DNA of 42,496 nucleotides from the IMG/VR virus record IMGVR_UViG_3300028423_001131, positions 1-42,496 of that record, one strand, 5' to 3'. The notes under the pieces were generated by a model. It made no database searches, was not told the DNA's origin, and saw only the letters and a list, made by a program, of their open reading frames with translations. Numbering within the stretch: the stretch's first letter is position 1; each line of letters starts with the position of its first letter. The DNA comes from a virus. Both the position numbers and the translations under genes were made by a program. Shown in pieces: positions 2,988 to 41,098 of this stretch.

Positions 2988-4373
2988 ATGGATGAAAACA
3001 ACGCAAGCAAAAATCAACAGTCAAGAACAGCAGACAATGCCACTGATACAAGACGCCCGGGTCCGTATCTGGCAAGAGTAATTGAACATCTTGACAGTTA
3101 TTATTCTGGCGGTTTAAAAGTAGAACTGTTGAAAACAGGAGAGTCGGGCAATATAAGCGAAACACTAGGACAAACAGTTGAAGTTTTTTATGCCAGTCCA
3201 TTCTACGGATTAACCAACAGCCAGCGCGGCCCTGGCAGCAATGACAATTATGCAGATACACAAAAAAGCTACGGTTGGTGGGCAGTGCCTCCTGATCCAG
3301 GTTCTATAGTGTTGGTTATTTTTGTAGAAGGCAGCAGAGATTACGGATATTGGTTTGCATGTGTGCCTGAAAGAGGCATGACTTTTATGTTGCCTGATGG
3401 TCATCCTTCAACAGAGCAGTTGTCAGGCGATGTACCCGGTGATCTTCGAGGAAAAAAGCTGCCCGGCGGAGAATACAATAAAAAAATAACCAAACCTAGA
3501 ACCAACAATGTTGTAAAATACAAGAGACCCTACAACAAAGATTATGTGGATTTTCTCTTAGCACAGGGATTAGTTGACGACGAAGTAAGAGGATTAACCA
3601 CCAGCAGTGCTCAAAGAGAAACACCCAGTGCAGTTATAGGATTTAGCAGTCCCGGGCCGTTGGACAAAAGAGGTGGCAGTCCTACAGCAGAAGTGGGATT
3701 AAAAGAAAGCAAAGCTACTATGCATACCAGCAGACTAGGAAGTAGCAGCATATTGATTGACGACGGTGATGACAAGCTGATAAGGGAAGGTCCTCCTGGA
3801 ACTACACCGTACAAGTATATCAACAAAGAAGCAAGCGAGAGCGGCGGCGATGTAACATTGCCGCAAAATGAATTAGTGCGACTGAGAACCAGGACAGGTA
3901 TGCAAATTGTTTTGCATACATCTGAAGATCTAATTTATTTAAACAACAGTAGAGGAACAGCCTGGCTGGAAATGACCAGCAATGGCAAAATTGATGTGTA
4001 TGCACAGGACAGCATCAGTTTTCACACCGACAATGATTTTAATTTTGATGCAGGCAGAGATATAAACTTCAATGCCCAGGGCAATGTTAATATAAACGCT
4101 GCTGCAAATATATTTCAAACTGCGGCTGCAAATTTAGAAATAAAAGCCGGCGATGACGGCAAGATTACCTGTGGCGGCACCAGCAATATCAAAAGTTCTT
4201 ATCACAAAGAAACAGCTGATAGAATTGACATGAACGGCCCAGAAGCAGCAGCCGAAGCTGCCCCGGCAAATATTCCAGTGAGAATTCCGCAACACGAACC
4301 GTGGAACGGACATGAAAATTGGAATCCGTTGGAAACAGCACCGGATAAAACTGTAGCAAAACCGCCAGAGTAA
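2988..4373 (+). CDS. gp5: Baseplate central spike, gp5/VgrG-like, without a lysozyme domain
   Basis: A 461-residue protein. Residues about 25-135 look like the OB-fold of gp5/VgrG proteins (PGPYLARVIEHLDS, WWAVPPDPGSIVLVIFVEG). A linker follows, and residues about 280-395 form a beta-helix needle. The needle part has RTGMQIVLHTSEDLIYLNN and then short repeats alternating Asn/Asp with hydrophobics (FNFDAGRDINFNAQGNVNIN), typical of trimeric spikes. T4 gp5 carries a lysozyme domain between OB-fold and needle. Here I see no catalytic lysozyme block, so this is a piercing spike rather than a wall hydrolase. The ATG follows the hub stop by a few bases and an AGAGG ribosome site lies upstream. Confidence 0.85.
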   Translation: MDENNASKNQQSRTADNATDTRRPGPYLARVIEHLDSYYSGGLKVELLKTGESGNISETLGQTVEVFYASPFYGLTNSQRGPGSNDNYADTQKSYGWWAVPPDPGSIVLVIFVEGSRDYGYWFACVPERGMTFMLPDGHPSTEQLSGDVPGDLRGKKLPGGEYNKKITKPRTNNVVKYKRPYNKDYVDFLLAQGLVDDEVRGLTTSSAQRETPSAVIGFSSPGPLDKRGGSPTAEVGLKESKATMHTSRLGSSSILIDDGDDKLIREGPPGTTPYKYINKEASESGGDVTLPQNELVRLRTRTGMQIVLHTSEDLIYLNNSRGTAWLEMTSNGKIDVYAQDSISFHTDNDFNFDAGRDINFNAQGNVNINAAANIFQTAAANLEIKAGDDGKITCGGTSNIKSSYHKETADRIDMNGPEAAAEAAPANIPVRIPQHEPWNGHENWNPLETAPDKTVAKPPE

Positions 4374-4389
4374 ACTAGAGGAGATAATC

Positions 4390-5298
4390 ATGAGCACATT
4401 TCCAGTAGACAACGGATCTCTTGGAACGCAGAATAGTAGAAACACTGTCAACACGGGCTCTGATACACAAACATCTCAGTCCACTGGCATTGTAGATGTT
4501 GTTGGTCGCGAAATACCATTTACTATAGATACTTTCCTACAAAGTCTTCCAGGCAGTCTCAGTACAATTCTAGCAGATTTAGCAAACAATATCATTGGAC
4601 AGTTGCCACAGATTGCACAGGATCTTTTATCCAGTACTGCTTTGTCAGGTGTGCTCGGCGGAGCAATAGGTGAACTTAGCAATGTTATTGCTGAATCAGT
4701 TGGAAATTTAGCAGGCGCATTACAAGATGCTGCTGGATCACTGTTAAATGAAATCGGAGAAGCAATAACAGAAATACCAGGCATTGGACCTGTTATACAG
4801 GATTTTGCTAAAGCCACAGGTGATTTTGCAAATAATCTCAGTCGGGCATATTCTGATCTTCCTTCTGATGTTCAAGCAGTTATACAGGATGCAACTGTGC
4901 AAATTGGTGCTGGCATACTAAACGATAATGAGAATTTGCGAAATTTGTCATCCTTGTTTACACTGACGCAAGCAGAACAGATACGAAAAAATATCAATTT
5001 TGCTGATAATCCTGCAAATGACATGCAACAAATTGCAACACAGGCTAGAAATCTTGACCAAGTGGTTTTCCAAGCAACAGGAAATGCAGTTTTTGCAAAT
5101 CTCAGTTCAAAAGCTCAGGAAGGCGCAACTCAAATAGCCAGGGCGTTGCAAGGATCCGACAATGGATTCAGCTTTAAAAATGTAATTCCTCAAGCAAATC
5201 GTGAAAACATACAGGTTGTTATAAACGGAGAACTGGCTGATCAAACACAATTGCGTGCCCTGCGTGAAGACACAAGCACATATTTAAACAGAGAGTAA
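4390..5298 (+). CDS. Hypothetical Gly/Ala-rich baseplate-region protein
   Basis: A 302-residue protein I do not recognise. The N-terminal 35 residues are polar and Ser/Thr/Asn-rich. Residues about 45-165 are a long series of amphipathic or hydrophobic helices rich in Ala, Gly, Ile and Leu, with glycine-zipper-like spacing (SGVLGGAIGELSNVIAESVG). The C-terminal half is ordinary and soluble-looking, ending in LREDTSTYLNRE. A strong AGAGGAG ribosome site precedes the ATG. It sits between the spike and gp25, so a virion role is likely: a spike-associated, membrane-active or chaperone-like part. The zipper pattern also occurs in the hub insertion, hinting that the two helical segments may pack together. 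Confidence 0.7.
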   Translation: MSTFPVDNGSLGTQNSRNTVNTGSDTQTSQSTGIVDVVGREIPFTIDTFLQSLPGSLSTILADLANNIIGQLPQIAQDLLSSTALSGVLGGAIGELSNVIAESVGNLAGALQDAAGSLLNEIGEAITEIPGIGPVIQDFAKATGDFANNLSRAYSDLPSDVQAVIQDATVQIGAGILNDNENLRNLSSLFTLTQAEQIRKNINFADNPANDMQQIATQARNLDQVVFQATGNAVFANLSSKAQEGATQIARALQGSDNGFSFKNVIPQANRENIQVVINGELADQTQLRALREDTSTYLNRE

Positions 5299-8700: not shown

Positions 8701-9272
8701 TTCCGCCCAGCAATGATCAGTTATTTTTAAGTTACGGAAGTGAAATTGAAAAGATAAAGAGTATCAGCGATGATCTAATATATCATCCTGTAAAATACAA
8801 GCCGCTGTTTGGTAGTAAATCCAATGTTGATTTACAAGCAGTTTTCAAGGTTGTAAAAAATCCTGACAGAGTAGTAAATGACAATGATGTTAAAAGTCGA
8901 ATTATAACAGGCATAAATCAATACTTTAGTTTAGATAACTGGGACTTTGGAGAAACTTTCTATTTCAGTGAACTGGCTGCTTATTTGTTTAACAGTTTAG
9001 CACCAGATATAGTAAGCATCGTTTTAGTTCCTAGAGACGAAACTCAGAGTTTTGGCAGTCTGTACGAAATCAAAAGCGAAAACGACGAAATTTTTGTGAG
9101 TTCTGCTATAGTAAGCGATGTTGAAATAATTGATTCGATTACAGCCAGTCGATTAAGAGCCAGTGGCGCTGTTGTTACAGAAAGTGCAGATTTGAATACC
9201 GGAATACAGAGTAGTGAACCAAGCACAAACATAATTATTACTGACAGCACTAGCGGAGGAACAAGTTACTAA
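5796..9272 (+). CDS. gp6: Baseplate wedge protein gp6
   Basis: A 1158-residue protein of the gp6/baseplate J family, which forms the inner iris-like ring of the baseplate and triggers sheath contraction. The N-terminal 110 residues are the best match: WKRIYQSFKYADFQSYDFD, INYIRQNYPEDFNDYIESSE, LALIDLIAFLGQNLAFRTDLN and RLARLLSYNPKRN. The remainder is beta-rich with segments such as YYTQNRLITGEDYNV, typical of J-type domains, and a C-terminal region including FGETFYFSELAAYL. It is longer than T4 gp6 (about 660 residues), as is usual in marine relatives. Its TAA overlaps the ATG of the next gene. Confidence 0.9.
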   Translation: MANTERQNRLLLAEDWKRIYQSFKYADFQSYDFDNLRRTMINYIRQNYPEDFNDYIESSEYLALIDLIAFLGQNLAFRTDLNARENFIETAERRESVLRLARLLSYNPKRNIPANGLLKLESVSTTEDIIDSNGVNLANQTVLWNDNTNSNWFEQFVKILNAGLPVNNTFGRPVKRSNIQGVNTEQYRFNGANQNLAVYNFSKSIDSVSTTFEVVSANFDDAIIFEEDPFPGNQLAFLYRDDGRGSGSNNTGFFFHFRQGTIQSNTFEVNSASPNTVVNIDTNNINNSDLWLYKLDSNNFETELWTKVDSVEGNNIIYNSIDRNIRNIYSVLSRINDKISLIFSDGTFGELPKGKFKVYYRTSANRNYKITPDNLFGINVQIPYISRNGKRETLNLILELKETVENASTSEDNDSIKANAPATYYTQNRLITGEDYNVGTLGVSQEIVKAKAVNRTSSGISRYFDLRDATGKYSNTLIFSDDGVIYKESIEDIKSFEFSSKNDIQFVIRNVVEPLIKDDRTKNFYYEQFPRNKEISNLGISWVQTTADTNRSTGYFADENELPVTVGSFTQSILKFIEPGSFLKFTAPSGSHFMPDGTLMSGPATHVGSRTYVWTKVVSIDDTGTEVNVDTGLGPIVLNDVIPQTSLLEEIIPVFNNQISADVTRQMIDQVFAFKTFGLRYDYNQRQWRVIFNNNLNTVSNFSLGKQGDGSNQQLDSSWILLFETDGEVYTVKSRGLRYIFESNDQTRFFFDSKDKIYNSKTGKIVNDTIKVLSNNNRPNSLDAFTVDWIWQISKEFENQAGYIDSKKVEIAFFDSDADGVVDDPDLFTQIVDSENIPQTDRYIFQKKSFLNKTEIYNYVDADKENIVPILTESNAQPFSNYNNGTVFYIIDKDIFKKLNSEKQQLNLVTDYKAFVGRELLKFEYSHAADENARIDPSSSNLIDVYLLTRQYDIAFRNYLQNRTSQKPLPPSNDQLFLSYGSEIEKIKSISDDLIYHPVKYKPLFGSKSNVDLQAVFKVVKNPDRVVNDNDVKSRIITGINQYFSLDNWDFGETFYFSELAAYLFNSLAPDIVSIVLVPRDETQSFGSLYEIKSENDEIFVSSAIVSDVEIIDSITASRLRASGAVVTESADLNTGIQSSEPSTNIIITDSTSGGTSY

Positions 9273-12200
9273 TGGCATACGAAGATAACCAAAATGATTT
9301 TCCATTACCAGGCGGCAAAAAGTCTCCAAAGCAAGGCGCTGAATTTTTACCCAAATATTTTAGAACCAACACAAATAGGAAATTCCTCGATGCTACTATA
9401 GATCAGTTTAACAGTGACGGTGTTGCAGAAAAAATTGATGCATTTGTAGGCAAGCGTGAAGCTAAAGCTGTTGATATCAATGACAACTATTTAGATGAAA
9501 TATCATCTTTGAGAAAAAACTACCAGTTTGATCCAGTGAGTGTTTATCGTGATGAAATTGGAAATATAACTTACAGCAAAGATTATGTTGATTATTTAGG
9601 ATTAGTTAAATCTTATAGAGGATCAACAGCAAACCAAAGCCTGCTTAACAGTCAGGAGTTTTATGCATGGAATCCTAGATTTGATTTTGATAAATTTGTA
9701 AACTTTAGAGAATATTATTGGCTACCCAATGGCCCTCAGGAAGTTGCAGTTCAGGGTCAAGCTAGAGACATTGTGAGTACCTATACTGTTACAACTGTTG
9801 TGGATGATAACAACACAGCGTTGGTGTTTACACCTGACGGTACAACTCGTAATCCGCGTTTGAAACTGTATAGAGGACAAACATACAGATTTGAAGTAAG
9901 CACCGACGGCGATCCAATTAGTATTGCAGTGAACAGAAGTGTTAAGCCAGCGCCGCGTGAACAAGCAACCAGTCTCACAAATAACACACTATACACCGAT
10001 GGAGTGACAATTCAGCAAACTGAAGTTGAAAACACATTAGAGGATGTGAATCAGTTTGTCAACCAAGGCTTTGTGGAAAACGGAATATTGGAATTTGCTA
10101 TTCCTGACAATGCACCGGATACACTGTATTTTGTAAGTCAATTTGATTTAAATGTTAGCTGTTCTATAGAGATAGCAAACATTGAAGAAAACACTGTGAT
10201 TGATGTAGACAACGAAATAATAGGAAAAAAGACATACACTACTTCTCAGGGTTGGAGTTTTTCAAATGGCATGAAGGTATATTTTCAAGGCCGTGTATCG
10301 CCGCAAAAATACAAGGAAGGTCTTTTTTATGTAGAAGGTGTAGGCGAAGCAATAAAACTAGTGCCAGTAAACAATTTGGAAGTGCCTGCTATATTCACAC
10401 AGGATACAAAAGTGCCTTTTGATGATAACGGGTTTGACAGAGTGCCATTCAGTGATGCATTAAGCTTTGCAGGAACCAAAGATTATATTGTCATCAATAG
10501 ATCCAGTGCAGACAGAAACAGCTGGTCAAGATACAATAGATGGTTTCATGTTGATGTAATCAACAAAAGTGCAGAAATTAACAATCAGCCAGTTGAAATA
10601 GATCAAAACTTTAGAGCAAAAAGACCAATAATTGAGTTTGAAGCAGGTCTCAAGTTGTACAATCATGGCACTATTGCAAAAGACAACATTGATCTTGTAG
10701 ATACTTTCTGCAATGATGTATTCAGCAAAATCGAAGGATCGTCTGATTATTATGTCGACGGTATAAAAATTGCAGATGGTATGAGAATACTGTTTTTAGG
10801 CGACGACGATCCTTTTGTATACGGAAAGATTTTTGAAGTAAAGCTGTTTACATTTAAAAATAATCAGCAAATCAGCTTAGTGGAAACAGCCGACACAGAT
10901 CCTGTGGAAAATCAAACTGTGCTGGTTAAACTGGGCAATGATAATACAGGCAACATGTTTTGGTACAATAGCATAGAATGGAATCCGGCTCAAGACAAGA
11001 ATAAATTAAATCAACCTCCGCTGTTTGATTTATTTGACGCAGACGGCCAAAGTCTAGCCGATAATACCATTTACACAAATACAGAATTCAAAGGTAATAA
11101 AATATTTTCTTACAAAGTCGGCGAAGGATTGAATGATCCAGAGTTGGGCTTTCCGCTGGTGTATAAAAATATACAAAACACAGGCGATATCACATTTGAG
11201 TTTAATCTTTTAAACGAGTTATACACTTATGAAGAATTGAATCAATCTGCTGAAATACGCAGCGACAATGCTTTTGCAAAACGATACGACAAATTCGGCG
11301 ACCTTTTTGAATTTGTAAACGGGTGGACCAAAGCAAATAAAAAAAGTGTTCAGTATGTGATTAGACAATTCTTTGGCAATGAAAGTGTAAACAATTTTCC
11401 TATTGATGTATATGACAATTCAGCTGATATTTCTGATTTGAAAGTGGTTGTGTATGTTGACAATCAGTTACAAAAACCAAATGAAGATTACACATTTTTT
11501 AACATAAACAATCAAAAACGAATCAGTTTCAAAGAAGACATAAATCGAAACAGCATTGTTCTTATAAAAACACTAAGTGATACACCTAAGAACCAAAATG
11601 GCTATTACGAAGTACCACACAACTTTGAGAGAAATCCGCTCAATGACAACATTGTTGAATTCACATTAGGTCAAGTGAACGATCATGTTGGCAGTATTGT
11701 AATTGAAGCAGATGCTTTTGAAGGCTCGCAGCCGGGCAACAACAATCTACGCGACATAGGACCAATTGCGCAGTTTGGTAGAAAATTTGTTCAGCACAGC
11801 GGACCTTTAAATCTTGCATTGTATCATTTGGCAAACAAAGACAGCAATGCTATAAATTCAATCAAATTTGCACGCAACGAATACGCTAAATTCAAAAGAG
11901 TGTTTCTACAAACAGCCGAAACGCTGGGCTTTGACGGCCCTGTAAAAAAGCATGTAGATCTTATATTGGAGACAATTAACAAAGACAAAACCTCCAATAT
12001 GCCTTTCTTTAGCACTGATATGATAGGTATAGGAGCTGCTAAAAAATTAGAATATACTGTGCTTGACAATAGAAATAAATTTTACGCACTGTCAACACCG
12101 TTTGATTTGCAAGAACTGTCTAACAAAGCAGTTAGCGTATATGTGAACAGTGTCCAGTTGGTGTTTGAGAAAGATTATGTGTTTACATCAGCAGGATTTG

Positions 12201-15200
12201 TAAATGTTTTAGCTGATTTAGATAACAATGATACGATAGAAATATATGAATATGAAACCACCGAAGGGTGCTTTATTCCTCCTACACCTAGCAGCCTAGG
12301 AATTTATCCAAAATATATTCCTGAAAAATATTTTGACAGCACATACAAAGAGCCTACAGATGTAATCAGAGGTCACGACGGAAGCATCACTGTCGCTTAT
12401 GGCGATTTTCGTGACGATTTGATGTTGGAATTGGAAAAAAGAATATTCAACAATATCAAAGTAGAGTATGATCCGGATATTTTTGACATAAACGATTATG
12501 TAGGAGGAGATTTTAGAAATACAAAAATTTCCAAGGCACAGCTAGACAATATAACAATTGGTGATTTTGTTGAATGGTCGAAAAAAGCCGGCGATCCTGA
12601 TTACACAGACAATGATTTCCTTGTGCAAACAGAAAGTTTTACTTACAATTATTCCAACAGCATTGGTCCTAATGGAAAAGCACTGCCAGGTTTTTGGCGT
12701 GCTGTTTATAAGCAAGCTTATGACACAGACAGTCCGCATACAAGACCTTGGGAAATGCTAGGATTCACTATCAAGCCCGGCTGGTGGGAACAGCAGTACG
12801 GTCCTGCGCCTTATACCAGTGATAACTTGATTTTGTGGAAGGATATTGAAAACGGTATAATAAATGAACCTGGAAAACAGCCACGGAGATTGAAAAAGTA
12901 CATTAGACCAGGGTTGACTCAACATTTACCAGTGGATCAAAGTGGCAATTTGATTAGCCCTCTGGACAGCAGTTATGCTCAAGAGTTTAGCTACATCACA
13001 CAAAGAGATTTGCAATACGATTTTGGTGATCAAGCACCGGTTGAATCGGCATGGAGACGCAGCAGCGAATATCCTTTTAGCTTGTTATCGGCGTTGATGA
13101 TTCTCAGACCAGCAGATGTAATAGGAAAAATATTTGATCGCAGTCGTATTGCTAGAGGTATCAACAGTGACCTTTTATACACCGACACTGGCAAACGAAT
13201 AAAACTCAGCGATTTGTCGTTTCCTGCAACAGTTGTTGATAACGAAAATATTCTCACATCTGGTATAGTAAATTACATACAAAATTATATGACCAGCAAT
13301 GTCAAAACAAATTATGCCAATTATATTGAAGATTTACCTAAACTGGATCATCAGCTAGGGTTTAAATTAGCAGGATTCACTGATAAAAGTAAATTGAATC
13401 TTGTGCTGGATAGCAGAACTCCGTCCAACAAAGGCAACATTTTTGTGCCTAAAGAAAATTACAATGTGATTCTGACCACTTCCAGTGTGCAAGATGTTGT
13501 GAGATACAGCGGTATAATAATTGAAAAAATTGGCAAAGGATATCGAGTAAAAGGATACGACAACGAAGACACTTATTTCGATTACTTTAAACCTATATCT
13601 GCAGACAGTGATCCTAGTATAAATGTTGGCGGAATCAGCGAAAGCTTCATTGAATGGGGCGAAAACCGCAATTATGTCACTGGAAAAATTGTGAGATTTC
13701 AAAAGAACTTCTATAGAGTAGTTACAACACACACTTCCAGCGACACCTTTGATTTAGAAAACTTTAGACTATTGTCAGAGTTGCCTGTGGCAGGAGGCGC
13801 CACTGCAACTATTAAGAAAAACTTTGAATCTGTGCCCAGCAGAGTCAACTATGGAAAAGTATACACTGATATACAACAGGTAGTTGACTTTATTATAGGA
13901 TATGGAGAATATTTAAAATCAATTGGGTTTGAATTTGAATTTTTCAACAGAACCACAGAAGCAATTGAAAATTTCCAACAGGCTGTGAGAGAATTCCTAT
14001 TTTGGACAACGCAAAACTGGGCTGCTGGCACAGTTATTACTATAAGTCCTGGCGCAAATGAATGTAAATTTTCAAGAGATTTTTATACCGTACAGGATAT
14101 TTACAATGGTTTTTATGATTACAATATTTTAAAAAGTGATGGAAATACTCTCAAAACTGACTTTACAAATACTGTAAGAGAAAACGGAAATCAGTTTTCT
14201 ATAGTTCCAATTAACACCGAGGATGGAATATATTTTGCTAAATTTGCACTGGTACAAACAGAACACAGTGTATTAATAGACAACACAACAGTATTCAATG
14301 ACACCATATACGATCCTGAACCTGGTTATAGACAGGAAAGAATACGCATCATTGGTTATAGAACCACGGACTGGAATGGCACCCTTAACATACCAGGATT
14401 CATATACGACGATGCTAAAGTAACAGAATGGACACCTTGGCAAGATTATCGCATTGGCGATTTAGTAAAATACAAAGAATTTTATTACAGCGCTGATAAA
14501 GATATTTCAGGATCAAATACATTTGATGCATCAAATTGGAATAGACTCAGTGAAAAGCCAGAGTCGACTCTAAAACCAAACTGGGATTACAGAGCAAAAC
14601 AGTTTACTGATTTTTACGATTTAGACACAGACAATTTTGACAGTGAACAACAAAAGCTGGCTCAACATCTTATTGGTTATCAAAAGAGAAACTATTTGTC
14701 TAATATCATAACAGATGATGTGAGTCAATACAAATTCTATCAAGGCTTTATACAAGACAAAGGCACCAACAATGCTTTAACAAAATTGTTTGACAAATTA
14801 GGCAGTGCCAACAAGGACAGTTTGGAATTTTTTGAAGAATGGGCAGTCAGAAAAGGGCAATACGGTGCAACAGATCAATTTGACGAAGTTGAGTATGTGT
14901 TAGACGAGAAACTGTTTAGAATAGAACCGCAACTGGTTGAACTGGTAAATTCGGTTGACAACACCAGAACAGATTTAGTTCATCAATATCCTCTAAAGGA
15001 TGTGTATGTAAAACCAAAAGATTATGATCACAAACCGTTTCCGGTTACTTATTCAGATAAAAACTTCAGTAAAACTGGCGGATATCTAAAACTGGATCAA
15101 GTGAATTTTATTGCAAAAACAATAGATGATATTTTGGCACTGGATATACAATTTGTAGAAATAGGAAATATTATATGGGTTCCGCAATTTAAAAATTCTT

Positions 15201-18200
15201 GGGATGTGTTTGAACACATTGAAACAGACAAAAAAATTGTTTCAATTGAACGAACCGACACTGGATTTACAGCATTTTTTGATAAAAATATCAATTTCCT
15301 ATCAGGCTCGATTATCGGAATAGAAAACATTGACAGTGAAATCAATGGTTTTCACATTGTAAAAAACAGCACATTGAACAGTATTGATGTTGATCTCAAC
15401 CGACCTCTCAGCAGCGAATCATATGATTTTGAAGACAGCACACTTGGTTTTGTTAGCGAAATAGCCAGTAAGCGTGTTGCAAATGCTGACCAAATGAATC
15501 TTCTTGTAAATGATCTTGGTCTAACACCCGGAGAAAAGATTTGGGTAGACAACATAAACAACAGATTTGCAGTTTTACAAAATTCCAAAATTTACAAGCA
15601 ACAACAAGAAATCGAAAACCCTGACACCGGCGATGGATTGTTTGGTATAGGAATTGATACCAATGCCAGCAACAACACCATGGCAGTGGGCAGACCATAC
15701 GACAACAAAGTTTATGTTTACAACAGAGTAAGTGATTCACAGGATTATGCACTGACACAAACAATAGATCCACAATTTATTAAAACAATTGATGTAAACG
15801 GTGTAACATTGGATAATCCAACAGTGTTGCAAACCAGTGTTTCTCATGAGCTTTCAGACAGTGATCAAATATCAATAACTGGAATTGTCGGCACCACTGA
15901 ACTAAACGAAAACACTTATTTTGTAAAAACTACATCGCTGGAAAATCAAGTAGAATTGTACGAAGATTTTGAATTAACAAAACCAGTGGATTCAACAGGA
16001 TTTACAGCATATGTCAAAGGCGGAAATGTTACCCACGGAAGCAGTTTCAATATCACTTCAAACTTTGGTACTGCTGTGGAAATCACCGATGACGGGAATT
16101 ACCTAGTTGTAGGTGCACCAGCTGCATCAAATGTTAAAACAAGATACATTGGATTATTGGAAGATGTAAGAGGTAATATATCAGCAGGCGATATTGTAAA
16201 TGACAGAGGAACATTATGGCAAGCACAAGTGGATTCGCCTGCTGACGGAAGCACAATAGACTACGAACTTGAAGACTGGAAACAGGTATACAATATTCCA
16301 GTGGATTCTGCTGGCAGCGCTAGCGGTCTAAAAGATCAAGGACTTGTACAAGTATACGAAAAGAAAGTTAACAATAGATTTGAATTGTTAAACAGTTTTG
16401 TTTCTGTGTCTCCTTCGCAAGATGAAAAATTTGGAATAGAAATCAAGAGCTCTATTGATGCAGCACTTGATAACAAGCTGTATATCAAAAGCAAAAAGCA
16501 TGGCGGCAGAATATATCTTTTTGAAAAAATCAACACTGAATTTGGTTCTGCTGCTGATCCGTTGTATAGAGGTACATTCAATCCTAACTTCAAATATGAG
16601 CAAAACGAAATCGTGTATTACGAAGGACTTCTTTACAGTGCAATCACCACTGTTCCAAAAAACACAGGATTTAGAGGTTCCGTAGACTGGAATCAAATAG
16701 ATTTAAATTTTGACAGAGTAGGATATTTGCCTTATCTCAGCGATGTAGTAGAAGGCGACAGTGACAGCAGCGGATTTACAAACTCAACAAACATAGCAGA
16801 TATATTTGATGTCAGCAGAGATACCAATACATTGGTTATAAGTTCGTTCGATACTGTTCAATCAATTACCAAGTTGGCAATTTATAAAATAAACAATGGC
16901 AGATATCAGTTTCAAGAAACAATTGATAGCAGTGGAGATTTGTGGAACACTGGATTGGCAGTGGACTCAACTGGTGCTAATATTGCAGTAGGCGATGTAT
17001 ACAACGATGACAACGGCATTGACACTGGCAGAGTATTGATATACACATATGATGCTGCACAGCAAACCTATAATTTAGACCAAACTTTGTATCCTCCTCG
17101 TGGATTGAAAAATGAATTGTTTGGATACAAAGTAGAATTCAATCTCAATGACCGTTTGGCAATTCTCAGTATAAATGGCAAGGCTGAACAAAATGTAAAT
17201 TTTGACAATGGTACAACATTTTTTGACAACAGCACAACAGAATTTAAAAAAGTGCTGAAAAAACAGAATCAAATTTATGTGTTTGAAAAACTCAGTGACA
17301 AATACATCATTGGCGAAATTGCTGATTATGCAAGTTATTCTGTTGACATCAACGGCACAAGAACTCTGAGAAATCTTGGCAACACATATAAACCAACTTT
17401 GATATTCAAAAATAATCACATAACACTGTCGTTGCCCAGCGTGAATTATACCAATGACAAAAAAGGATTGATTTTTGATTTGCGCAGTGACAGAAATGTA
17501 AGCAATTGGAAAGCAATCGGCACCGCAAAGGATCATGTGGATTATGATCTCATGAAAACTGCATTTTTATACGACAGACCGACCAATGATTTAATTACAT
17601 ATTTGGATGTGATAGACCCAATCAAGGGAAAAATTGCAAATCCTGCAGAGCAAGAAATAAGTTACAAGCTGTATTATGATCCTGCTGTATACAATGTAGG
17701 ATCGACCAATACAGGAACAGTAAATCCTTGGGATTCTGCTGCTGTAGGAAAACTATGGTGGGATCTCAGCGCATCTAAATGGTTTAATCCATATCAAGGC
17801 AATATAGAATACAGTGCAAACAACTGGAATAAATTGATACCTGGGTTTGATGTGGAAGTTTACGAATGGGTAGAAAGTGATATTCCGCCCTCGGAGTGGG
17901 ATCAATTAGCCGATACAACTGCTGGCGTAGTAGACGGCATCAGCGGTCAAAGCAAGTATGGTGATAGTCAATACAGCAGAGCCGATGTGTATGATCCTAT
18001 CTCGGACACCTTTAGCAGCAAGTATTATTTTTGGGTCAAAGACAAGCAGACAATTCCGGCTATTAACAATAGACAGCTTGCTAGTAGCGAAGTTACCAGT
18101 CTCATAAAAGACCCAGCAGGCACAGGATACAGATTTGTTGCTGTATTTGGTAATGATCAGTATGCTGTATACAATTGCAGAAGTTTAATAAAGGACAAAG

Positions 18201-21200
18201 ACACTGTAATACATTTTGAATATTACAACACAGTTGACAACGACAAGAATATTCACACAGAATACGAACTGTTGTCAGAAGGCCTTGAAACAAGCATGCC
18301 AAATGAATATGTGGTTAACAAGTGGATAGACAGTCTTGTGGGTTATGATCAAGAAAGAAATCAGTTGCCTGATTTAAATCTCAGCCCTGCTAGAAGATAT
18401 GGTATTCTCAATGATCCGAATCAAAGCATGTTTGTAAACAATAATGAAGCATTGAAACAAATCGTTGAGAGAGTAAACAGAGTTCTTGAACGAAACTTGA
18501 TTGTAGACGATTTTGATCTGTCACCGCTTACAAAGATAGATCCCCAGCCGTCAAGTGTTTCTAGAAAATACGACGTTAAAATAGAAACAGAATCTCAATT
18601 GAGATTTGTTGGCACTGCAAAAATTTCTAGAGCAGTGTTGGAACCAGTTATTCAAGACGGAAAAATTGTAGATATCAAAATTGTTAAGTCAGGAAGAGGT
18701 TATGTAGACCCGTCTTACGATAGCAAAAATGATACATTTAGAAAAGGACCTCGTGTAAACATTACAGGCACAGGCAAAAATGCTGTGATTGAAACCGAAA
18801 TCAATAATCTAGGTCAGGTAATAAACGCCACTGTGAAAAATTCTGGTTTTGATTACGATGACAACACAATTGTATCTGTTAGAAAATTCAGTGTTCTAGT
18901 TGAAAATGACAGTGAAATCAGCGGATTCTGGTCCTTGTATAATTTCAATGATATAACCAATGAGTGGTTTAGAATTGATAACCAAGATTATGATACAAAT
19001 CTATATTGGCAATACAAGGATTGGTATGCTGACGGATTTGACAATCTCACGCCCATTGATTATCTGATTACTGCCAGTTATGAAATTGATTCGCTGAATA
19101 ACAGAATAGGTGATGTTGTTAAAATTGAAAACATAGGCAGCGGCGGCTGGTTACTGTTGCAAAAAATTGACGAACAACCACAGGTTGATTACACTGTGAA
19201 CTATAAAACCATTGGTAGACAAAACGGAACAATACAATTCAGCAAGCTTTTGTATAACAATATCACAAGTGGGTTTGATAATCAAGATTATGATTCTCTA
19301 TTGTACGACAGAGAAGCCATTGAAGAAACTAGAATTATATTAAAAGCACTGAGAGACAATATTTTTGTAGACCAGCTAGCAGTTGAATACAATAGACTAT
19401 TCTTTAGCAGTGTTAGATATGCATTGTCTGAACAACCATCTGTGGACTGGATATTCAAAACCAGTTTTATAAAAGCCAAGCATAATGTAGGCGAATTAGA
19501 ACAAAAAGTTACATTCAAAAACGATAATTTAGAAAATTATCAAGATTATGTCGACGAAGTTAAACCGTATAAAACCAAAGTAAGAGAATATGTGAGCAGC
19601 TACGAAAAAGTTGATCCAACAAATACCACTGTTACTGATTTTGATTTACCACCTCGATACGACGAAATTGCAAAAAGAATCGTCACAGAGGATGTCAAAG
19701 CAGTGAATTCACAAATAACCGGGGTCAATGATTTTGTAAAAACTCCTCCGCAAAAGTCTTGGTTAGACAATGTTGGCTTTGAAATCAAAGACATAGTAAT
19801 CAGCAACGGCGGCACAGGTTGGTCTTCAGGACCGCTTGTGACTATTTCAGGCGGCGGCGGACCTACATTAACAGGCAGAGCTACTATTGCTAGAGGATCT
19901 GTAAACAGTATTGATGTTGATACTTCAAATGCAACTTATATAAGTGCACCGATGGTGACATTTGATGGATCGCAAGCAGAGGACAGCAAACCAGCTAAAG
20001 CAAATGTAATATTAGGATACAGCAAAACAAGAAGCAGTCATGTTACTGTAAAGTTTGATAGAATAACAGGAAATTATCTGTTTACAAAATTAGACGAAAC
20101 AGATACCTTTGTAGGCTCGGGCTCACAACAGGAGTTTGTGCTGGAATATCCTGCAGATACAAACAGAGACACATTTACAGTGTTTATAGACAATGTTGAG
20201 ATGCTGTCAAGTGAATTTGTAATTGATAATATTGTTGATAACACAAAAACATATCAAAGAAAATTAGGAAGAATCACTTTTGAAACTGCCCCTGCATTAA
20301 ATGCAGAAATAATAATCAACTATAAAAAGTCTGTTGAAATGTTGTCTGCTGCGGATAGAATAAACTTCTTCTACAATCCTACTACTGGAATGGCAGGAAA
20401 TGATTTGGCACAGTTAATGGATGGCATTGATTACGGTGGCGTTCAAGTTGACAGTATTGACTTTGGCAACGAACAAGGGTTTGAAAGCAGCGCGTATGGA
20501 ACAACCAGTTTTGATACATTTGATCAAGTGTTTGACGATCAAATCTTTGTGTTGGATGGCAGCACACAAACACTGGAACTAAAGGCACCACTGGAAGCCG
20601 GAGTAGTTTATAATCTTTACAAAAATAATGTGAGACTGGATGATCCGAATTTTGATGGCAGCAGTGCAGTGACCAACGACAATGCAGTTATAAACAGCAT
20701 CATCGGCGATGGCATCACTAACACAATTGATATTGACGAAGAAGCAATACCAACGCAAGACGGCGATGTAATTGTAATTAGAAAATCAACCAGCGACGGC
20801 AGCTTTTTACCCAGCGGCGCTGCGCTTGACACCGAACTCACTGGTGGCAATTTCCAGTATAGCACTGCCAAAGGAATAGACAGCGGTGAGATAGTAGTCG
20901 ATGGTGACGGATTTGTAACAGAAACAACCAGTAAAGGTCCAGAAGAACTAGTTCCTGGTCAAGTAGCCGATACCATGGATATACAGGTATATCACAAAGT
21001 TCCAGACGGTCAAGGATTAATCACGGTTCAAAATTATATCACAGACGGCAATACTTCTGTGTATTCATTTGAAGATTATCCTATGACTACTGACACTACT
21101 ATAGTAAAAATAGATAACCGTGTATTGCACGCAGACGAGTATGAAATTGATTTTGAAAACAAAACAGTGATTTTTGATAGTGTGCCCGATGCTGATAAAA

Positions 21201-23218
21201 TACTGAGTATTTTGACCATTGGTGTAAATGGTACAAGCATTGTTGATGCAGACTTTTTGAACGGCGACGGCAGCACAGAAAACTTTGTTTTAGGTGTTAA
21301 CTATCAAGAACCAATCAGTGCATTTGTTACAATAAACGGTATACAAACAGAAAGCTTTGTACTGGAAAAAGCTGACAGCAGTTACGGAATCAAGGAAAAC
21401 AGACTGATAATAAATTTTGATAATGCTCCGGACAATGGTTCTGTTATAAATTACACAATTTACAGCGCTGAAAGTCAAACTTACAGTCAAATGATAATTG
21501 ATCAAACATTCAATCAAGATGGAATAAACAAGGCTCACGAGTTTGACACTGAAAGCAATCCAACTCCTTATCCGTTTAATGAAAAACCAATAGCCAGATA
21601 TATATTGGTCAAAGATGGCAATAGATTCTTAAATCCTGGGTATGCTGTTAAGTATACCATGACCACAAGTAGTCAATATGATGTACAAGCTTGGCAATTT
21701 GATAATCCAGCTGAGTTAATGACAGATGATATTGTTGTGCACATCAACGGAGAGCAATTAGACAGCAGTAGATATTCTTATGACAGTGTTAATTACAGAG
21801 TAATACTAAACAAGCAAGAAGATATTAGTCCTGGAAGTGAGTTAATCGTCAATGTAATAAAAGATGCCGAGTATACCACAGTAGACACTGAATTGGAAAT
21901 TGAGCTTGCAAACGGAGTAGAATGGCCAATTGAACCCGTTGATGAATTTTTAATCACAGCCGATGACGGAACTGAAATACCTGTTGTGCTGCAAGAATAC
22001 GAACAAACAGGAAACATTGTAAAACTGATATTGCAAGGATATGTGAGAGAGATATTCAAACTGTTGTATGCCAGTGACACCACCACAGTCTTCTACAACA
22101 ACGACAGTACAACATTCACAGTGAAATCGTTTGATGTGGTAAAAAGCGAAAGATTAAATCTGCGCAACAACGATTACACAGACATCAAAATTTATGTGTT
22201 TGGCAATCATGATGTAAACGATTTTGAAAGACAAACACTCACTGTTATAAATGATCCTACTACACCGCTGGTAGATGCTGAACAAATACAGATTAGGAAC
22301 AACCTAACTAGAGGTGTTGTAAATCTAAGAAAGCCTGCTGCTGGAGCAGAATATGTTTGGGTCATGCTCAACGGTACTTTGCTAACTGCTGGTGCCGATT
22401 ACAAACTTGTAGGCAAAACACAATTGGATATCAAACAGGAGTTGCAGGAGCAAGATATTGTAGATATCCTGCACTTCACAGCACCGGCTGCTAGATCCAA
22501 GTATGCATTTAGAATTTTCAAAGACATAATCAACAGATTCCATTACAAGAGATTGTCTGATAAAAATTCATACACATTGTCTAAAGATCTAAAATATTAC
22601 GATAACATAATTGAATTGGAAGATGCAACCGGAATTGACGAGCCCAATAGATTACAGGGTATTCCTGGAGTTGTATGGATAGGCAAAGAAAGAATAGAAT
22701 ATTTTGTAAAGCAAGGAAATCTCTTAAGACAATTGAGAAGAGGCACACTGGGCACAGGTATAAAAACTGTGCATTTGTCAGGCGAAACAGTATTGGGTCA
22801 AGGAGCGTCAGAAAATATACCATACAAAGATCAAATTATAAACGATATCAAAATCGGTGATGGTTCTTCTGCCGATTATATTCTAGATTATACACCTGAT
22901 TCAACAAAAGAAATAGAAGTATTTGTAGGCGGCAGAAGACTGAGAGATCACGAATTGCCAGTTTACAACGCAAATCTAAGTCTTGACAGTCCTGAAGCTG
23001 ACACCGTTTCTCCTGCAGAATACTCTGTTGAAAACAACATTATTACATTTAATATTCAAGACGAGTTGCACAGCAATCAGGTTCCGTTGAGCAATGAAAA
23101 AATACAAATTGTTCGCAAAATAGGAAAAATTTGGAACGACAAAGGCAAAAGTTTAAGTGACAGTGAAAATCAAATTGCTAAATTTCTAACAAGCAGCTCG
23201 ATACAGTTACCACGATAA
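9272..23218 (+). CDS. Giant 4648-residue baseplate/peripheral structural protein in the gp7 position
   Basis: One uninterrupted frame of almost 14 kb, translationally coupled to gp6. Synteny (25-6-here) points to the gp7 wedge initiator, but T4 gp7 has only about 1030 residues. Visible parts, in order: an N-terminal block with FYAWNPRFDFDKFVNFREYYWLP (about 128-150); a conserved-looking IRGHDGSITVAYGDFRDD region (about 1030-1065); short aromatic modules near 1458, 1723, 2308 and 2442; a propeller-like region at about 2110-2700 with FG-GAP-type motifs (FGTAVEITDDG, LVVGAPA); many Ig-like units of the pattern V-x-hydrophobic-N-G-x-x-L (3500-4400); and a terminal IPGVVWIGKERIEYF / RRGTLGT unit (about 4463-4490). 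It is probably a large scaffold radiating from the baseplate to carry fibres and bind surface polymers. Domain names here are pattern-based inference. Confidence 0.8.
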   Translation: MAYEDNQNDFPLPGGKKSPKQGAEFLPKYFRTNTNRKFLDATIDQFNSDGVAEKIDAFVGKREAKAVDINDNYLDEISSLRKNYQFDPVSVYRDEIGNITYSKDYVDYLGLVKSYRGSTANQSLLNSQEFYAWNPRFDFDKFVNFREYYWLPNGPQEVAVQGQARDIVSTYTVTTVVDDNNTALVFTPDGTTRNPRLKLYRGQTYRFEVSTDGDPISIAVNRSVKPAPREQATSLTNNTLYTDGVTIQQTEVENTLEDVNQFVNQGFVENGILEFAIPDNAPDTLYFVSQFDLNVSCSIEIANIEENTVIDVDNEIIGKKTYTTSQGWSFSNGMKVYFQGRVSPQKYKEGLFYVEGVGEAIKLVPVNNLEVPAIFTQDTKVPFDDNGFDRVPFSDALSFAGTKDYIVINRSSADRNSWSRYNRWFHVDVINKSAEINNQPVEIDQNFRAKRPIIEFEAGLKLYNHGTIAKDNIDLVDTFCNDVFSKIEGSSDYYVDGIKIADGMRILFLGDDDPFVYGKIFEVKLFTFKNNQQISLVETADTDPVENQTVLVKLGNDNTGNMFWYNSIEWNPAQDKNKLNQPPLFDLFDADGQSLADNTIYTNTEFKGNKIFSYKVGEGLNDPELGFPLVYKNIQNTGDITFEFNLLNELYTYEELNQSAEIRSDNAFAKRYDKFGDLFEFVNGWTKANKKSVQYVIRQFFGNESVNNFPIDVYDNSADISDLKVVVYVDNQLQKPNEDYTFFNINNQKRISFKEDINRNSIVLIKTLSDTPKNQNGYYEVPHNFERNPLNDNIVEFTLGQVNDHVGSIVIEADAFEGSQPGNNNLRDIGPIAQFGRKFVQHSGPLNLALYHLANKDSNAINSIKFARNEYAKFKRVFLQTAETLGFDGPVKKHVDLILETINKDKTSNMPFFSTDMIGIGAAKKLEYTVLDNRNKFYALSTPFDLQELSNKAVSVYVNSVQLVFEKDYVFTSAGFVNVLADLDNNDTIEIYEYETTEGCFIPPTPSSLGIYPKYIPEKYFDSTYKEPTDVIRGHDGSITVAYGDFRDDLMLELEKRIFNNIKVEYDPDIFDINDYVGGDFRNTKISKAQLDNITIGDFVEWSKKAGDPDYTDNDFLVQTESFTYNYSNSIGPNGKALPGFWRAVYKQAYDTDSPHTRPWEMLGFTIKPGWWEQQYGPAPYTSDNLILWKDIENGIINEPGKQPRRLKKYIRPGLTQHLPVDQSGNLISPLDSSYAQEFSYITQRDLQYDFGDQAPVESAWRRSSEYPFSLLSALMILRPADVIGKIFDRSRIARGINSDLLYTDTGKRIKLSDLSFPATVVDNENILTSGIVNYIQNYMTSNVKTNYANYIEDLPKLDHQLGFKLAGFTDKSKLNLVLDSRTPSNKGNIFVPKENYNVILTTSSVQDVVRYSGIIIEKIGKGYRVKGYDNEDTYFDYFKPISADSDPSINVGGISESFIEWGENRNYVTGKIVRFQKNFYRVVTTHTSSDTFDLENFRLLSELPVAGGATATIKKNFESVPSRVNYGKVYTDIQQVVDFIIGYGEYLKSIGFEFEFFNRTTEAIENFQQAVREFLFWTTQNWAAGTVITISPGANECKFSRDFYTVQDIYNGFYDYNILKSDGNTLKTDFTNTVRENGNQFSIVPINTEDGIYFAKFALVQTEHSVLIDNTTVFNDTIYDPEPGYRQERIRIIGYRTTDWNGTLNIPGFIYDDAKVTEWTPWQDYRIGDLVKYKEFYYSADKDISGSNTFDASNWNRLSEKPESTLKPNWDYRAKQFTDFYDLDTDNFDSEQQKLAQHLIGYQKRNYLSNIITDDVSQYKFYQGFIQDKGTNNALTKLFDKLGSANKDSLEFFEEWAVRKGQYGATDQFDEVEYVLDEKLFRIEPQLVELVNSVDNTRTDLVHQYPLKDVYVKPKDYDHKPFPVTYSDKNFSKTGGYLKLDQVNFIAKTIDDILALDIQFVEIGNIIWVPQFKNSWDVFEHIETDKKIVSIERTDTGFTAFFDKNINFLSGSIIGIENIDSEINGFHIVKNSTLNSIDVDLNRPLSSESYDFEDSTLGFVSEIASKRVANADQMNLLVNDLGLTPGEKIWVDNINNRFAVLQNSKIYKQQQEIENPDTGDGLFGIGIDTNASNNTMAVGRPYDNKVYVYNRVSDSQDYALTQTIDPQFIKTIDVNGVTLDNPTVLQTSVSHELSDSDQISITGIVGTTELNENTYFVKTTSLENQVELYEDFELTKPVDSTGFTAYVKGGNVTHGSSFNITSNFGTAVEITDDGNYLVVGAPAASNVKTRYIGLLEDVRGNISAGDIVNDRGTLWQAQVDSPADGSTIDYELEDWKQVYNIPVDSAGSASGLKDQGLVQVYEKKVNNRFELLNSFVSVSPSQDEKFGIEIKSSIDAALDNKLYIKSKKHGGRIYLFEKINTEFGSAADPLYRGTFNPNFKYEQNEIVYYEGLLYSAITTVPKNTGFRGSVDWNQIDLNFDRVGYLPYLSDVVEGDSDSSGFTNSTNIADIFDVSRDTNTLVISSFDTVQSITKLAIYKINNGRYQFQETIDSSGDLWNTGLAVDSTGANIAVGDVYNDDNGIDTGRVLIYTYDAAQQTYNLDQTLYPPRGLKNELFGYKVEFNLNDRLAILSINGKAEQNVNFDNGTTFFDNSTTEFKKVLKKQNQIYVFEKLSDKYIIGEIADYASYSVDINGTRTLRNLGNTYKPTLIFKNNHITLSLPSVNYTNDKKGLIFDLRSDRNVSNWKAIGTAKDHVDYDLMKTAFLYDRPTNDLITYLDVIDPIKGKIANPAEQEISYKLYYDPAVYNVGSTNTGTVNPWDSAAVGKLWWDLSASKWFNPYQGNIEYSANNWNKLIPGFDVEVYEWVESDIPPSEWDQLADTTAGVVDGISGQSKYGDSQYSRADVYDPISDTFSSKYYFWVKDKQTIPAINNRQLASSEVTSLIKDPAGTGYRFVAVFGNDQYAVYNCRSLIKDKDTVIHFEYYNTVDNDKNIHTEYELLSEGLETSMPNEYVVNKWIDSLVGYDQERNQLPDLNLSPARRYGILNDPNQSMFVNNNEALKQIVERVNRVLERNLIVDDFDLSPLTKIDPQPSSVSRKYDVKIETESQLRFVGTAKISRAVLEPVIQDGKIVDIKIVKSGRGYVDPSYDSKNDTFRKGPRVNITGTGKNAVIETEINNLGQVINATVKNSGFDYDDNTIVSVRKFSVLVENDSEISGFWSLYNFNDITNEWFRIDNQDYDTNLYWQYKDWYADGFDNLTPIDYLITASYEIDSLNNRIGDVVKIENIGSGGWLLLQKIDEQPQVDYTVNYKTIGRQNGTIQFSKLLYNNITSGFDNQDYDSLLYDREAIEETRIILKALRDNIFVDQLAVEYNRLFFSSVRYALSEQPSVDWIFKTSFIKAKHNVGELEQKVTFKNDNLENYQDYVDEVKPYKTKVREYVSSYEKVDPTNTTVTDFDLPPRYDEIAKRIVTEDVKAVNSQITGVNDFVKTPPQKSWLDNVGFEIKDIVISNGGTGWSSGPLVTISGGGGPTLTGRATIARGSVNSIDVDTSNATYISAPMVTFDGSQAEDSKPAKANVILGYSKTRSSHVTVKFDRITGNYLFTKLDETDTFVGSGSQQEFVLEYPADTNRDTFTVFIDNVEMLSSEFVIDNIVDNTKTYQRKLGRITFETAPALNAEIIINYKKSVEMLSAADRINFFYNPTTGMAGNDLAQLMDGIDYGGVQVDSIDFGNEQGFESSAYGTTSFDTFDQVFDDQIFVLDGSTQTLELKAPLEAGVVYNLYKNNVRLDDPNFDGSSAVTNDNAVINSIIGDGITNTIDIDEEAIPTQDGDVIVIRKSTSDGSFLPSGAALDTELTGGNFQYSTAKGIDSGEIVVDGDGFVTETTSKGPEELVPGQVADTMDIQVYHKVPDGQGLITVQNYITDGNTSVYSFEDYPMTTDTTIVKIDNRVLHADEYEIDFENKTVIFDSVPDADKILSILTIGVNGTSIVDADFLNGDGSTENFVLGVNYQEPISAFVTINGIQTESFVLEKADSSYGIKENRLIINFDNAPDNGSVINYTIYSAESQTYSQMIIDQTFNQDGINKAHEFDTESNPTPYPFNEKPIARYILVKDGNRFLNPGYAVKYTMTTSSQYDVQAWQFDNPAELMTDDIVVHINGEQLDSSRYSYDSVNYRVILNKQEDISPGSELIVNVIKDAEYTTVDTELEIELANGVEWPIEPVDEFLITADDGTEIPVVLQEYEQTGNIVKLILQGYVREIFKLLYASDTTTVFYNNDSTTFTVKSFDVVKSERLNLRNNDYTDIKIYVFGNHDVNDFERQTLTVINDPTTPLVDAEQIQIRNNLTRGVVNLRKPAAGAEYVWVMLNGTLLTAGADYKLVGKTQLDIKQELQEQDIVDILHFTAPAARSKYAFRIFKDIINRFHYKRLSDKNSYTLSKDLKYYDNIIELEDATGIDEPNRLQGIPGVVWIGKERIEYFVKQGNLLRQLRRGTLGTGIKTVHLSGETVLGQGASENIPYKDQIINDIKIGDGSSADYILDYTPDSTKEIEVFVGGRRLRDHELPVYNANLSLDSPEADTVSPAEYSVENNIITFNIQDELHSNQVPLSNEKIQIVRKIGKIWNDKGKSLSDSENQIAKFLTSSSIQLPR

Positions 23219-33944: not shown

Positions 33945-34508
33945 ATGTCAGTTTTCATGGGTGTAAACAATGATAGATTTGTTGTGTTCGACGACCAAGG
34001 CGACATACAGTCAATTGGCAGATACGAAGACGCAGCCTATAATAATTTAAAAGTGGATTTTGAACAAGTAAGGAACTTGGTCGAGGGCAGAGAATCGTTA
34101 TTCAACTTCAAAGTTGAGTATGATTTTATAGAAAAACGTTATGTTCTCAAGAACAAGCATGATCATGAACAAGATCAATTAAAAGAATCTTTTTTGTATG
34201 AAATACCCTATACCAAATCACAGACAGAAGTAAAAATCATAAAAGATAATGTAAATCAGGTATGGAAACTTTTGATAGATCCAAAAATACTCGAAGGTAT
34301 ACAAACAGGGTCGCTGCATGCAGATCCAAGGGATCAATACTACAGTGTAACAAGAAAATACAATGCCAACTTTTTGCATCGTGTTTTAAAATTCGACGAA
34401 ACTAGTGAAATACCGTTTGAGTATAATTTCGAATTTGACAATATACCTACAAGCGTTTACACTGTAAGGAAGTTTTCCACATATTCTATTGAGGTTATTG
34501 ATGAATAA
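33945..34508 (+). CDS. Hypothetical operon protein, 187 aa
   Basis: A 187-residue soluble protein that I do not recognise. It begins FMGVNNDRFVVFDDQGDIQSIG, a strand-turn-strand pattern, and is rich in charged and aromatic residues throughout. Later parts are VWKLLIDPKILEGIQTG and FEYNFEFDNIPTSVYTVRKF. No catalytic motif, signal peptide or membrane segment is visible. It starts one base after the previous stop and overlaps the next gene by 8 bases, so it belongs to the transferase/radical SAM operon and may be a partner or substrate protein. Confidence 0.65.
   Translation: MSVFMGVNNDRFVVFDDQGDIQSIGRYEDAAYNNLKVDFEQVRNLVEGRESLFNFKVEYDFIEKRYVLKNKHDHEQDQLKESFLYEIPYTKSQTEVKIIKDNVNQVWKLLIDPKILEGIQTGSLHADPRDQYYSVTRKYNANFLHRVLKFDETSEIPFEYNFEFDNIPTSVYTVRKFSTYSIEVIDE
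34491..34494 (+). promoter_or_regulatory. Ribosome site GAGG deciding the start at 34501
   Basis: GAGG lies 6 bases before ATG 34501, which overlaps the upstream stop. The longer frame from TTG 34489 has no comparable site. Confidence 0.5.
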
Positions 34509-35430
34509 ATTTAAAGTAATTGACTGCGATATCATATATCTAAGCTATGATGAACCCAATGCTGAACGCAATTATGCTGATTTGTGCAAAAAAGTACCTT
34601 GGGCAGAGCGCGTGCACGGTGTTAAGGGCAGCGATAGTGCACACAAAGCAGCAGCAAAACTCAGTAACACTGATAGATTTATAACAATCGACGGCGATAA
34701 TAGAATTCGCGATAACTTTCTCACACAGTCAATTGATTTTGACAAAGACATTGATCTCACAAACAAAGTAATCAGTTGGACAGCCAACAACACCATCAAC
34801 GGTCTGTCATACGGCAATGGTGGCATCAAGTGCTGGCCAAAAAAGCATGTGCTTGAAATGCGAACACATGAAAATGCAGATCCTAACAATCCGCATGCGC
34901 AGGTAGATTTTTGTTGGGACACAGAATATGTACAAATGAATGGCACATTCAGTGATATTTACAATAATGCTACTCCGCATCAAGCATGGCGTGCCGGCTT
35001 TAGAGAAGGTGTTAAAATGGCATTGGATAGAGGATTGCGTGTTACGCCGGAACAATTTTATACAAATCATTGGAAAAATCTACATCGTTTGTATATCTGG
35101 TTAATGGTAGGTGCAGATGTAGAGAACGGAAACTATGCAATCCACGGTGCAAGAGAAGGTTTGTACAAGACCATGTGCACAGATTGGGATTTTGTCAATG
35201 TTAGAGATTTTGATTGGCTAAACACATACTGGAATGAATCAAATATTCAACAGGATAGCCAGCTCGAATTACTGGAAAAAACCGAAGAACTTGGTGTAAG
35301 TTTGAGAATGCATTTGGATTTGCCTATTTCTATAAGCCCACTTGACAGCGAACAAAGTAATTTCTTCAAAACAGTGTATCAAAATCCAACAAGAGATAAC
35401 AGTAAAAAGTTTTTAGATAGAGAGCAATAA
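34501..35430 (+). CDS. Transferase-like protein with DGD motif (YDEPNAE/RVHGVKG family)
   Basis: A 309-residue protein. Its N-terminus reads IIYLSYDEPNAERNYADL, then WAERVHGVKGSDSAHKAAAKL, then DRFITIDGDNRI with D64-G-D66, a DxD-like metal site. This layout (start strand, conserved helix, DxD after about 60 residues) suggests a GT-A-like nucleotide-sugar enzyme. Further conserved-looking parts are GLSYGNGGIKCWPKKHV and HQAWRAGFREGVKMAL. The same module occurs as the last of three copies in the gene at 41099. No substrate can be named. The short start at ATG is preferred over an upstream TTG. TAATG overlap couples it to the radical SAM gene. Confidence 0.65.
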   Translation: MNKFKVIDCDIIYLSYDEPNAERNYADLCKKVPWAERVHGVKGSDSAHKAAAKLSNTDRFITIDGDNRIRDNFLTQSIDFDKDIDLTNKVISWTANNTINGLSYGNGGIKCWPKKHVLEMRTHENADPNNPHAQVDFCWDTEYVQMNGTFSDIYNNATPHQAWRAGFREGVKMALDRGLRVTPEQFYTNHWKNLHRLYIWLMVGADVENGNYAIHGAREGLYKTMCTDWDFVNVRDFDWLNTYWNESNIQQDSQLELLEKTEELGVSLRMHLDLPISISPLDSEQSNFFKTVYQNPTRDNSKKFLDREQ

Positions 35431-41026: not shown

Positions 41027-41044
41027 TACATTCCTCCGCTTGTG

Positions 41045-41052
41045 TATTTATC
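41045..41052 (-). promoter_or_regulatory. Late-type promoter GATAAATA of the minus-strand fibre gene
   Basis: On the minus strand GATAAATA ends 18 bases before the fibre ATG and is followed by GGAGG (41037-41033). It is identical to three plus-strand octamers before virion genes. Confidence 0.65.
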
Positions 41053-41063
41053 TAAATTATGCA

Positions 41064-41092
41064 TTGACAAGTTTTTGATATTGCTATATAAT
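41064..41092 (+). promoter_or_regulatory. Perfect-consensus sigma70 promoter
   Basis: TTGACA at 41064-41069, 17 bases, TATAAT at 41087-41092: all 12 consensus positions at ideal spacing. Transcription should start at about 41098-41100, on or next to the ATG at 41099. It is divergent from the late-type promoter only 11 bases away. Confidence 0.88.
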
Positions 41093-41098
41093 CTTTTT

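Follow-up and report, generated by a model that had tools for sequence, protein, structure and literature searches.

A predicted integrin-type beta-propeller inside a giant baseplate-region protein of uncultured aquatic phages

Beta-propellers have been described in several phage devices for host recognition. The receptor-binding protein of Staphylococcus phage phi11, a baseplate host-recognition device, contains one, as does the P2 protein of PRD1 (PMC4901313), and at the baseplate periphery of a myophage, PhiKZ gp131C has a seven-bladed propeller suspected of receptor binding (cited in PMC4901313). Seven-bladed propellers are also found in the tail nozzles of T7 (gp12) and SU10, with domains inserted between or within the blades (PMC6702177, PMC9509320). 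Among viruses of eukaryotes, a role in attachment was suggested for the FG-GAP proteins of prasinovirus MntV1, an algal virus that a 2024 paper puts forward as possibly the first confirmed case (PMC11467894). Phage host-recognition devices and nozzles with propellers, and FG-GAP annotations in some viral proteins, are thus already known. A search of the open literature that combined FG-GAP with phage or baseplate terms returned no paper on a phage baseplate FG-GAP protein, and the integrin-type propeller reported here, in a family of giant proteins encoded in the baseplate region, appears to be undescribed.

The window analysed is a stretch of 42,496 nucleotides of viral DNA, and the propeller lies in its giant virion structural protein (9272-23218, plus strand like all propeller features given below; 4648 aa; phrog_10938 'virion structural protein', E~0). 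Compared with this propeller, that of the phi11 receptor-binding protein has five blades, belongs to a separate trimeric protein and has an enzyme, not integrins, as its best structural match (PMC4901313), and that of PhiKZ gp131C is the C-terminal domain of a different protein. The T7 and SU10 propellers, unlike the present one, build the DNA channel of short tails, a structural role (PMC6702177, PMC9509320). MntV1 shares the viral FG-GAP repeats, but carries them on separate proteins of a eukaryotic algal virus (PMC11467894). In contrast to other repeat proteins of the FG-GAP_2 family (PF14312), the phage propeller is embedded in a giant baseplate-region protein and bears CBM5/12- and FCCH-like inserts.

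Pfam and PHROG matches of the neighbours place the phrog_10938 gene 3' of gp25- and gp6-like wedge genes and 5' of tail-collar-like genes. The giant protein and T4 gp7 have the same gene position, after gp6. No similarity between the two was found by profile comparison and their PHROGs differ, so that the label 'baseplate wedge' is a positional guess from gene order. The sequence-only reading of this DNA, which had called the propeller unexpected in a baseplate wedge, put this too strongly, as baseplate propellers are known from the phi11 receptor-binding protein and PhiKZ gp131C (PMC4901313). The giant protein family is common to many uncultured aquatic phages, and jumbo phages have giant virion proteins with homology to its N and C parts. 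The proteins of RaK2 (ORF070w), PA5oct/MIJ3 and Atu_ph07 share both parts with the window protein, and in most of them a gp6-like gene adjoins; unlike the window protein, they have no recognised propeller at the site where it is inserted in the window. Some homologs (L181 to L185) come from bacterial genome bins and name no host, since they are possibly phage contigs binned with bacteria; L181 and L182, one of them 335 kb long, are on MAG contigs labelled Neomarinimicrobiota and may be large phage genomes. In L003, a relative 84% identical, the giant gene is split into two overlapping ORFs near 15469-15499 (residue ~2826); either a frameshift or an error of assembly would explain this.

The repeated FG-x pattern described earlier for residues ~2110-2700 is present, the three strings quoted for it being found at residues 2124, 2265 and 2617 (window 15641, 16064 and 17120). 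The VY-type strands said to follow these motifs were recovered as well, as VYVYNR, VQVYEKK, IYLFEK, LAIYKI, VLIYTY, IYVFEK and LIFDLR. On the window alone, the Pfam profile FG-GAP_2 (PF14312) scored 22.2 bits (E 1.7e-4), 0.8 bits short of its cut-off of 23; it matched 31 of 32 homologs, with a best E of 9e-20. We then used a blade profile made from 30 other phages, from which the window and its nearest relative were excluded. The window scored 38.0 bits with this profile, and none of 500 shuffles exceeded 7.9; the reversed sequence gave no match, and the remainder of the giant protein 1.4 bits at most. Matches begin at residues 2124, 2264, 2385, 2509, 2561, 2615 and 2710, which makes seven blades in register; three of the seven are weak singly (-3.0 to 0.9 bits), and the weight comes from the register. 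A profile of the propeller family searched against the PDB retrieved integrin alpha-6 (E 0.0023). A single-protein scan found no relatives of the propeller alone, and relatives were therefore gathered via the flanks.

The structure of residues 2075-2755 was predicted with AF2 from 71 aligned sequences, those of the window and of 70 IMG/VR relatives. The model is a seven-bladed propeller with a mean pLDDT of 90.9 and a pTM of 0.91. The ten best solved matches are all heads of integrins alphaM, alphaL and alphaX (Z 29.2-31.1, 347-358 residues, 3.2-3.7 A, 11-14% identity), the best being alphaM/alphaL heads at Z 31.1 over 352 residues and 3.4 A, spanning model residues 32-675. Propellers of the WD40 type come close behind, with Z up to 28.9, and the integrin lead over other seven-bladed propellers is ~2 Z units; we assigned the domain to the FG-GAP type because of its sequence signature, namely the FG-GAP_2 matches of the homologs and the integrin alpha-6 profile match. 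Compared with a library of predicted viral structures, the model has FG-GAP proteins, both from giant viruses and from uncultured phages, among its nearest neighbours. The integrin-alpha-type propeller of the sequence-only reading is thus borne out by the model and its top structural matches; both the structure prediction and the propeller-profile search led to a propeller fold, and no other fold was seen. It might be argued that the FG-x pattern arose by chance, or is a generic beta pattern of a repetitive structural protein with no propeller at all, given that the Pfam score of the window is just below the curated cut-off and that AF2 run from the single sequence reached a pLDDT of only 29. 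This is contradicted by the alignment-based fold, the integrin matches, the presence of FG-GAP_2 in nearly all homologs and the shuffle control, and we regard it as extremely improbable.

According to the model, residues ~2109-2739 form a complete seven-bladed FG-GAP, or integrin-alpha-type, beta-propeller (15596-17485). The location given earlier, 15600-17370, was right, and the real span is slightly wider. A strand at model residues 35-41 (QQEIENP, 15596-15616) lies ahead of blade 1 and is where the structural alignment sets in, opposite integrin residue 1; this N-terminal 'velcro' strand would close the ring by completing blade 7, as in integrins. The blades themselves were delimited with the AF2 model and the blade profile. 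Blade 1 (FGIGIDTNASNNTMAVGRPYDNKVYVYNR...LTQTID) extends over 15641-15766, and blade 2 (FGTAVEITDDGNYLVVGAPA ... QGLVQVYEKK..FELLNSFV), which contains the best FG-GAP_2 stretch, over 16064-16402. They are followed by blade 3 (FGIEIKSSID...KLYIKSKKHGGRIYLFEK, 16430-16549), blade 4 (16805-16927), blade 5 (WNTGLAVDSTGANIAVGDVYNDD..GRVLIYTYD, 16937-17089), blade 6 (FGYKVEFNLNDRLAILS...IYVFEKLSDKYIIGEIAD, 17120-17323), which has a long 2-3 hairpin, and strands 1-3 of blade 7 (LIFKNNHITLSLPSVNY..KGLIFDLRSD, 17396-17485). The phage domain shares with the integrin alpha head the seven blades, a putative N-terminal closing strand, the FG...GAP pattern and the placing of inserts in upper loops, as for the alphaI domain. 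It differs from it in having neither calcium loops nor a beta subunit, in its sequence (11-14% identity) and in its place inside a phage structural protein. Integrin alpha subunits are part of a transmembrane heterodimeric receptor, and the present domain is not, as it belongs to a phage structural ORF lying between gp6-like and tail-collar-like genes.

The two faces of the propeller, assigned from strand order, differ strongly among the 32 aligned homologs. Lower loops (1-2 and 3-4) have a length SD of 0.45 and a maximum of 9 aa; for upper loops (2-3 and 4-1) the mean length SD is 7.9 and the maximum 159 aa. In integrins, the 2-3 and 4-1 loops make up the ligand face. Every insert of the window's propeller is in an upper loop. 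The 4-1 loop between blades 1 and 2 carries an E1_FCCH-like insert (15833-16036; Pfam E1_FCCH E 1e-4, under cut-off), a family matched in 8 of 32 homologs with a best E of 4.9e-8. Blade 2 has an insert that looks CBM5/12-like by eye in its 2-3 loop (16118-16339), a loop 7 to 159 long in relatives, and the 4-1 loop between blades 3 and 4, 10 to 146 long in relatives, holds a second CBM5/12-like insert (16550-16804; weak CBM_5_12 match, E 0.32). The fourth is the long hairpin of blade 6. CBM_5_12 was matched in 16 of the 32 homologs (E <= 0.01), the window's own insert reaching only 11.5 bits. In L002 (residues ~2265-2775) and many relatives, ~500 extra aa were seen by eye in the upper loop of blade 2, with no Pfam match. 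Outside the propeller, residues 1461-1489 of the giant protein (13652-13738) match a CBM5/12 module at 31.3 bits, which exceeds the Pfam cut-off.

Integrin heads bind calcium in their 1-2 loops, and many seven-bladed propellers are enzymes. On these general grounds the domain might resemble an enzyme and, for instance, cleave glycans, or might depend on a metal, as a calcium-bound adhesin of the integrin kind does. The integrin calcium-loop motif, D-x-D/N-x-D/N-G-x-x-D/E, was however found in 0 of the 32 aligned homologs. For want of this motif, the binding of divalent metals evoked in the sequence-only reading is unsupported, and the propeller probably works without integrin calcium loops. 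Pfam gives repeat and carbohydrate-binding families in the propeller region, and no convincing catalytic family, and the top structural matches are adhesion heads. We therefore consider an enzymatic or metal-dependent function quite improbable.

The propeller is inserted between two strands of one hairpin of the giant protein. On the N side, the strands of this host domain are IWVDN..RFAVLQNSK (15536-15583; model strands E15-21 and E24-30), the propeller being inserted after them; on the C side, the strand NWKAIGT (17507-17524; model E672-677) leads back to the conserved scaffold. Both sides are kept in the propeller-less relatives L008 and L187. In L008, L186 and L187 the flanks are directly joined, with zero residues at the propeller site. 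Their near relatives L188, L189, L191 and L195 still carry a propeller, diverged or not, and the propeller-less clade therefore looks like a case of clean loss. Another domain at the site was considered for L189, L191, L202 and L255; by eye, these look like diverged propellers. A propeller-sized insert was present in all 64 loci that were fetched via the N part and had both flanks. Among the 72 viral loci of the set fetched via L008, 3 had no insert, and some of those counted as propellers had few or no profile blade matches and were called by eye only. The propeller is thus nearly universal in uncultured aquatic relatives; one clade lacks it, as do jumbo-phage homologs, that of RaK2 among them. 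At the same site, XaC1 and RaK2 have 81-101 aa, Vibrio phage 2.275.O, MIJ3 and SCTP-2 have 222-507 aa with no assigned domain, and Phosso (L017) and Atu_ph07 (L014) have ~1400-1530 aa of glycine-rich repeats. A LamG-like domain suspected by eye in Salicola phage SCTP-2 had no Pfam match. When cultured phages were searched with insert-poor propellers, the only matches were a separate Phosso protein and one record of an uncultured phage; the FG-GAP-like protein of Phosso is encoded apart, at 67536-68627.

In comparisons with ten relatives, identity was 32-45% for the propeller and for the most part 48-79% in other parts of the giant protein. The protein sequence of the propeller changes about twice as fast as that of its flanks. 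A second fast-evolving stretch of the giant protein, with 26-43% identity to relatives, is at residues ~3900-4400 (~20970-22470). Against the nearest relative, dN/dS was 0.098 for the propeller and ~0.05 for the flanks, ratios that are rough because synonymous sites are near saturation; the propeller value corresponds to purifying, not positive, selection. Distances for blades 3-7 correlate with flank distances (r 0.87-0.88) nearly as flanks do with each other (0.90). As blade distances track the flanks, the propeller mostly follows the gene in its inheritance, and its variation is chiefly in the loops; frequent swapping of propellers between lineages is unsupported by these values.

This vertical inheritance, together with the near-universal presence, favours a role as an internal docking platform, in which the upper face would hold a tail fibre, a collar-type fibre or a neighbouring copy of the protein, and would never touch the host. 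The nozzle propellers of T7 and SU10, which have structural or docking roles, offer a precedent (PMC6702177, PMC9509320). A platform should nevertheless be conserved, yet the propeller is among the faster-evolving parts and its upper-loop lengths vary widely; one clade appears to have cleanly lost it, and the jumbo-phage homologs are without it. We consider docking rather unlikely, although it is the leading alternative to an adhesive role.

The computations establish the fold and its type, its insertion in the giant protein, the unequal loop variation of the two faces and the dispensability of the propeller in one clade. Adhesion agrees with this fold, with the CBM-like modules grafted onto it and with its faster change, and with moderate confidence we propose that the propeller probably serves for adhesion at the virion's tail end, binding a host surface or glycan. 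Lower-face loops are short and fixed; since the upper ones are variable and bear the CBM5/12- and FCCH-like modules, it is the upper face that would point outward. The giant protein would display this face, in several copies, to the host surface, where it might bind a glycan or an envelope protein, and such binding could strengthen or trigger attachment beside dedicated tail fibres. Some points speak against adhesion. Unlike many receptor-binding modules, the propeller does not seem to be freely swapped and, from the distances above, is inherited mainly with the gene. Its dN/dS suggests purifying selection, and one clade, as judged from its genes, does without it. Moreover, the CBM5/12-like modules may be structural, as they also occur elsewhere in the giant protein (residues 1461-1489) and in other virion proteins. 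An extended form of the adhesion proposal, which we put forward only tentatively, is that a widespread lineage of uncultured aquatic myophages carries an integrin-type head in every copy of its giant baseplate protein, and that this head, re-tooled by CBM grafts on the upper loops, serves for adhesion in general and helps to set host range.

A large group of aquatic phages, most of them uncultured, has in its baseplate region a fold that also serves cell adhesion in animals. With more than 100 phage loci carrying the propeller, the range of viral FG-GAP proteins is widened beside the algal virus case (PMC11467894). The propeller is a compact, expressible domain which may govern attachment.

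Elsewhere in the window, a gene for a flavin-dependent tryptophan halogenase was found on the minus strand (37366-38886; Pfam Trp_halogenase E 4e-76). The gene adjoining it at 38883-39941 is for a short AMP-binding enzyme (E 6e-17), and a radical SAM gene is nearby (35430-36803). Two ORFs, 34489-35430 and 41003-42427, have no Pfam match and are maybe paralogs, having in common the stretch YLSYDEPNA..NY..L..KVP.A.RVHGVKG...
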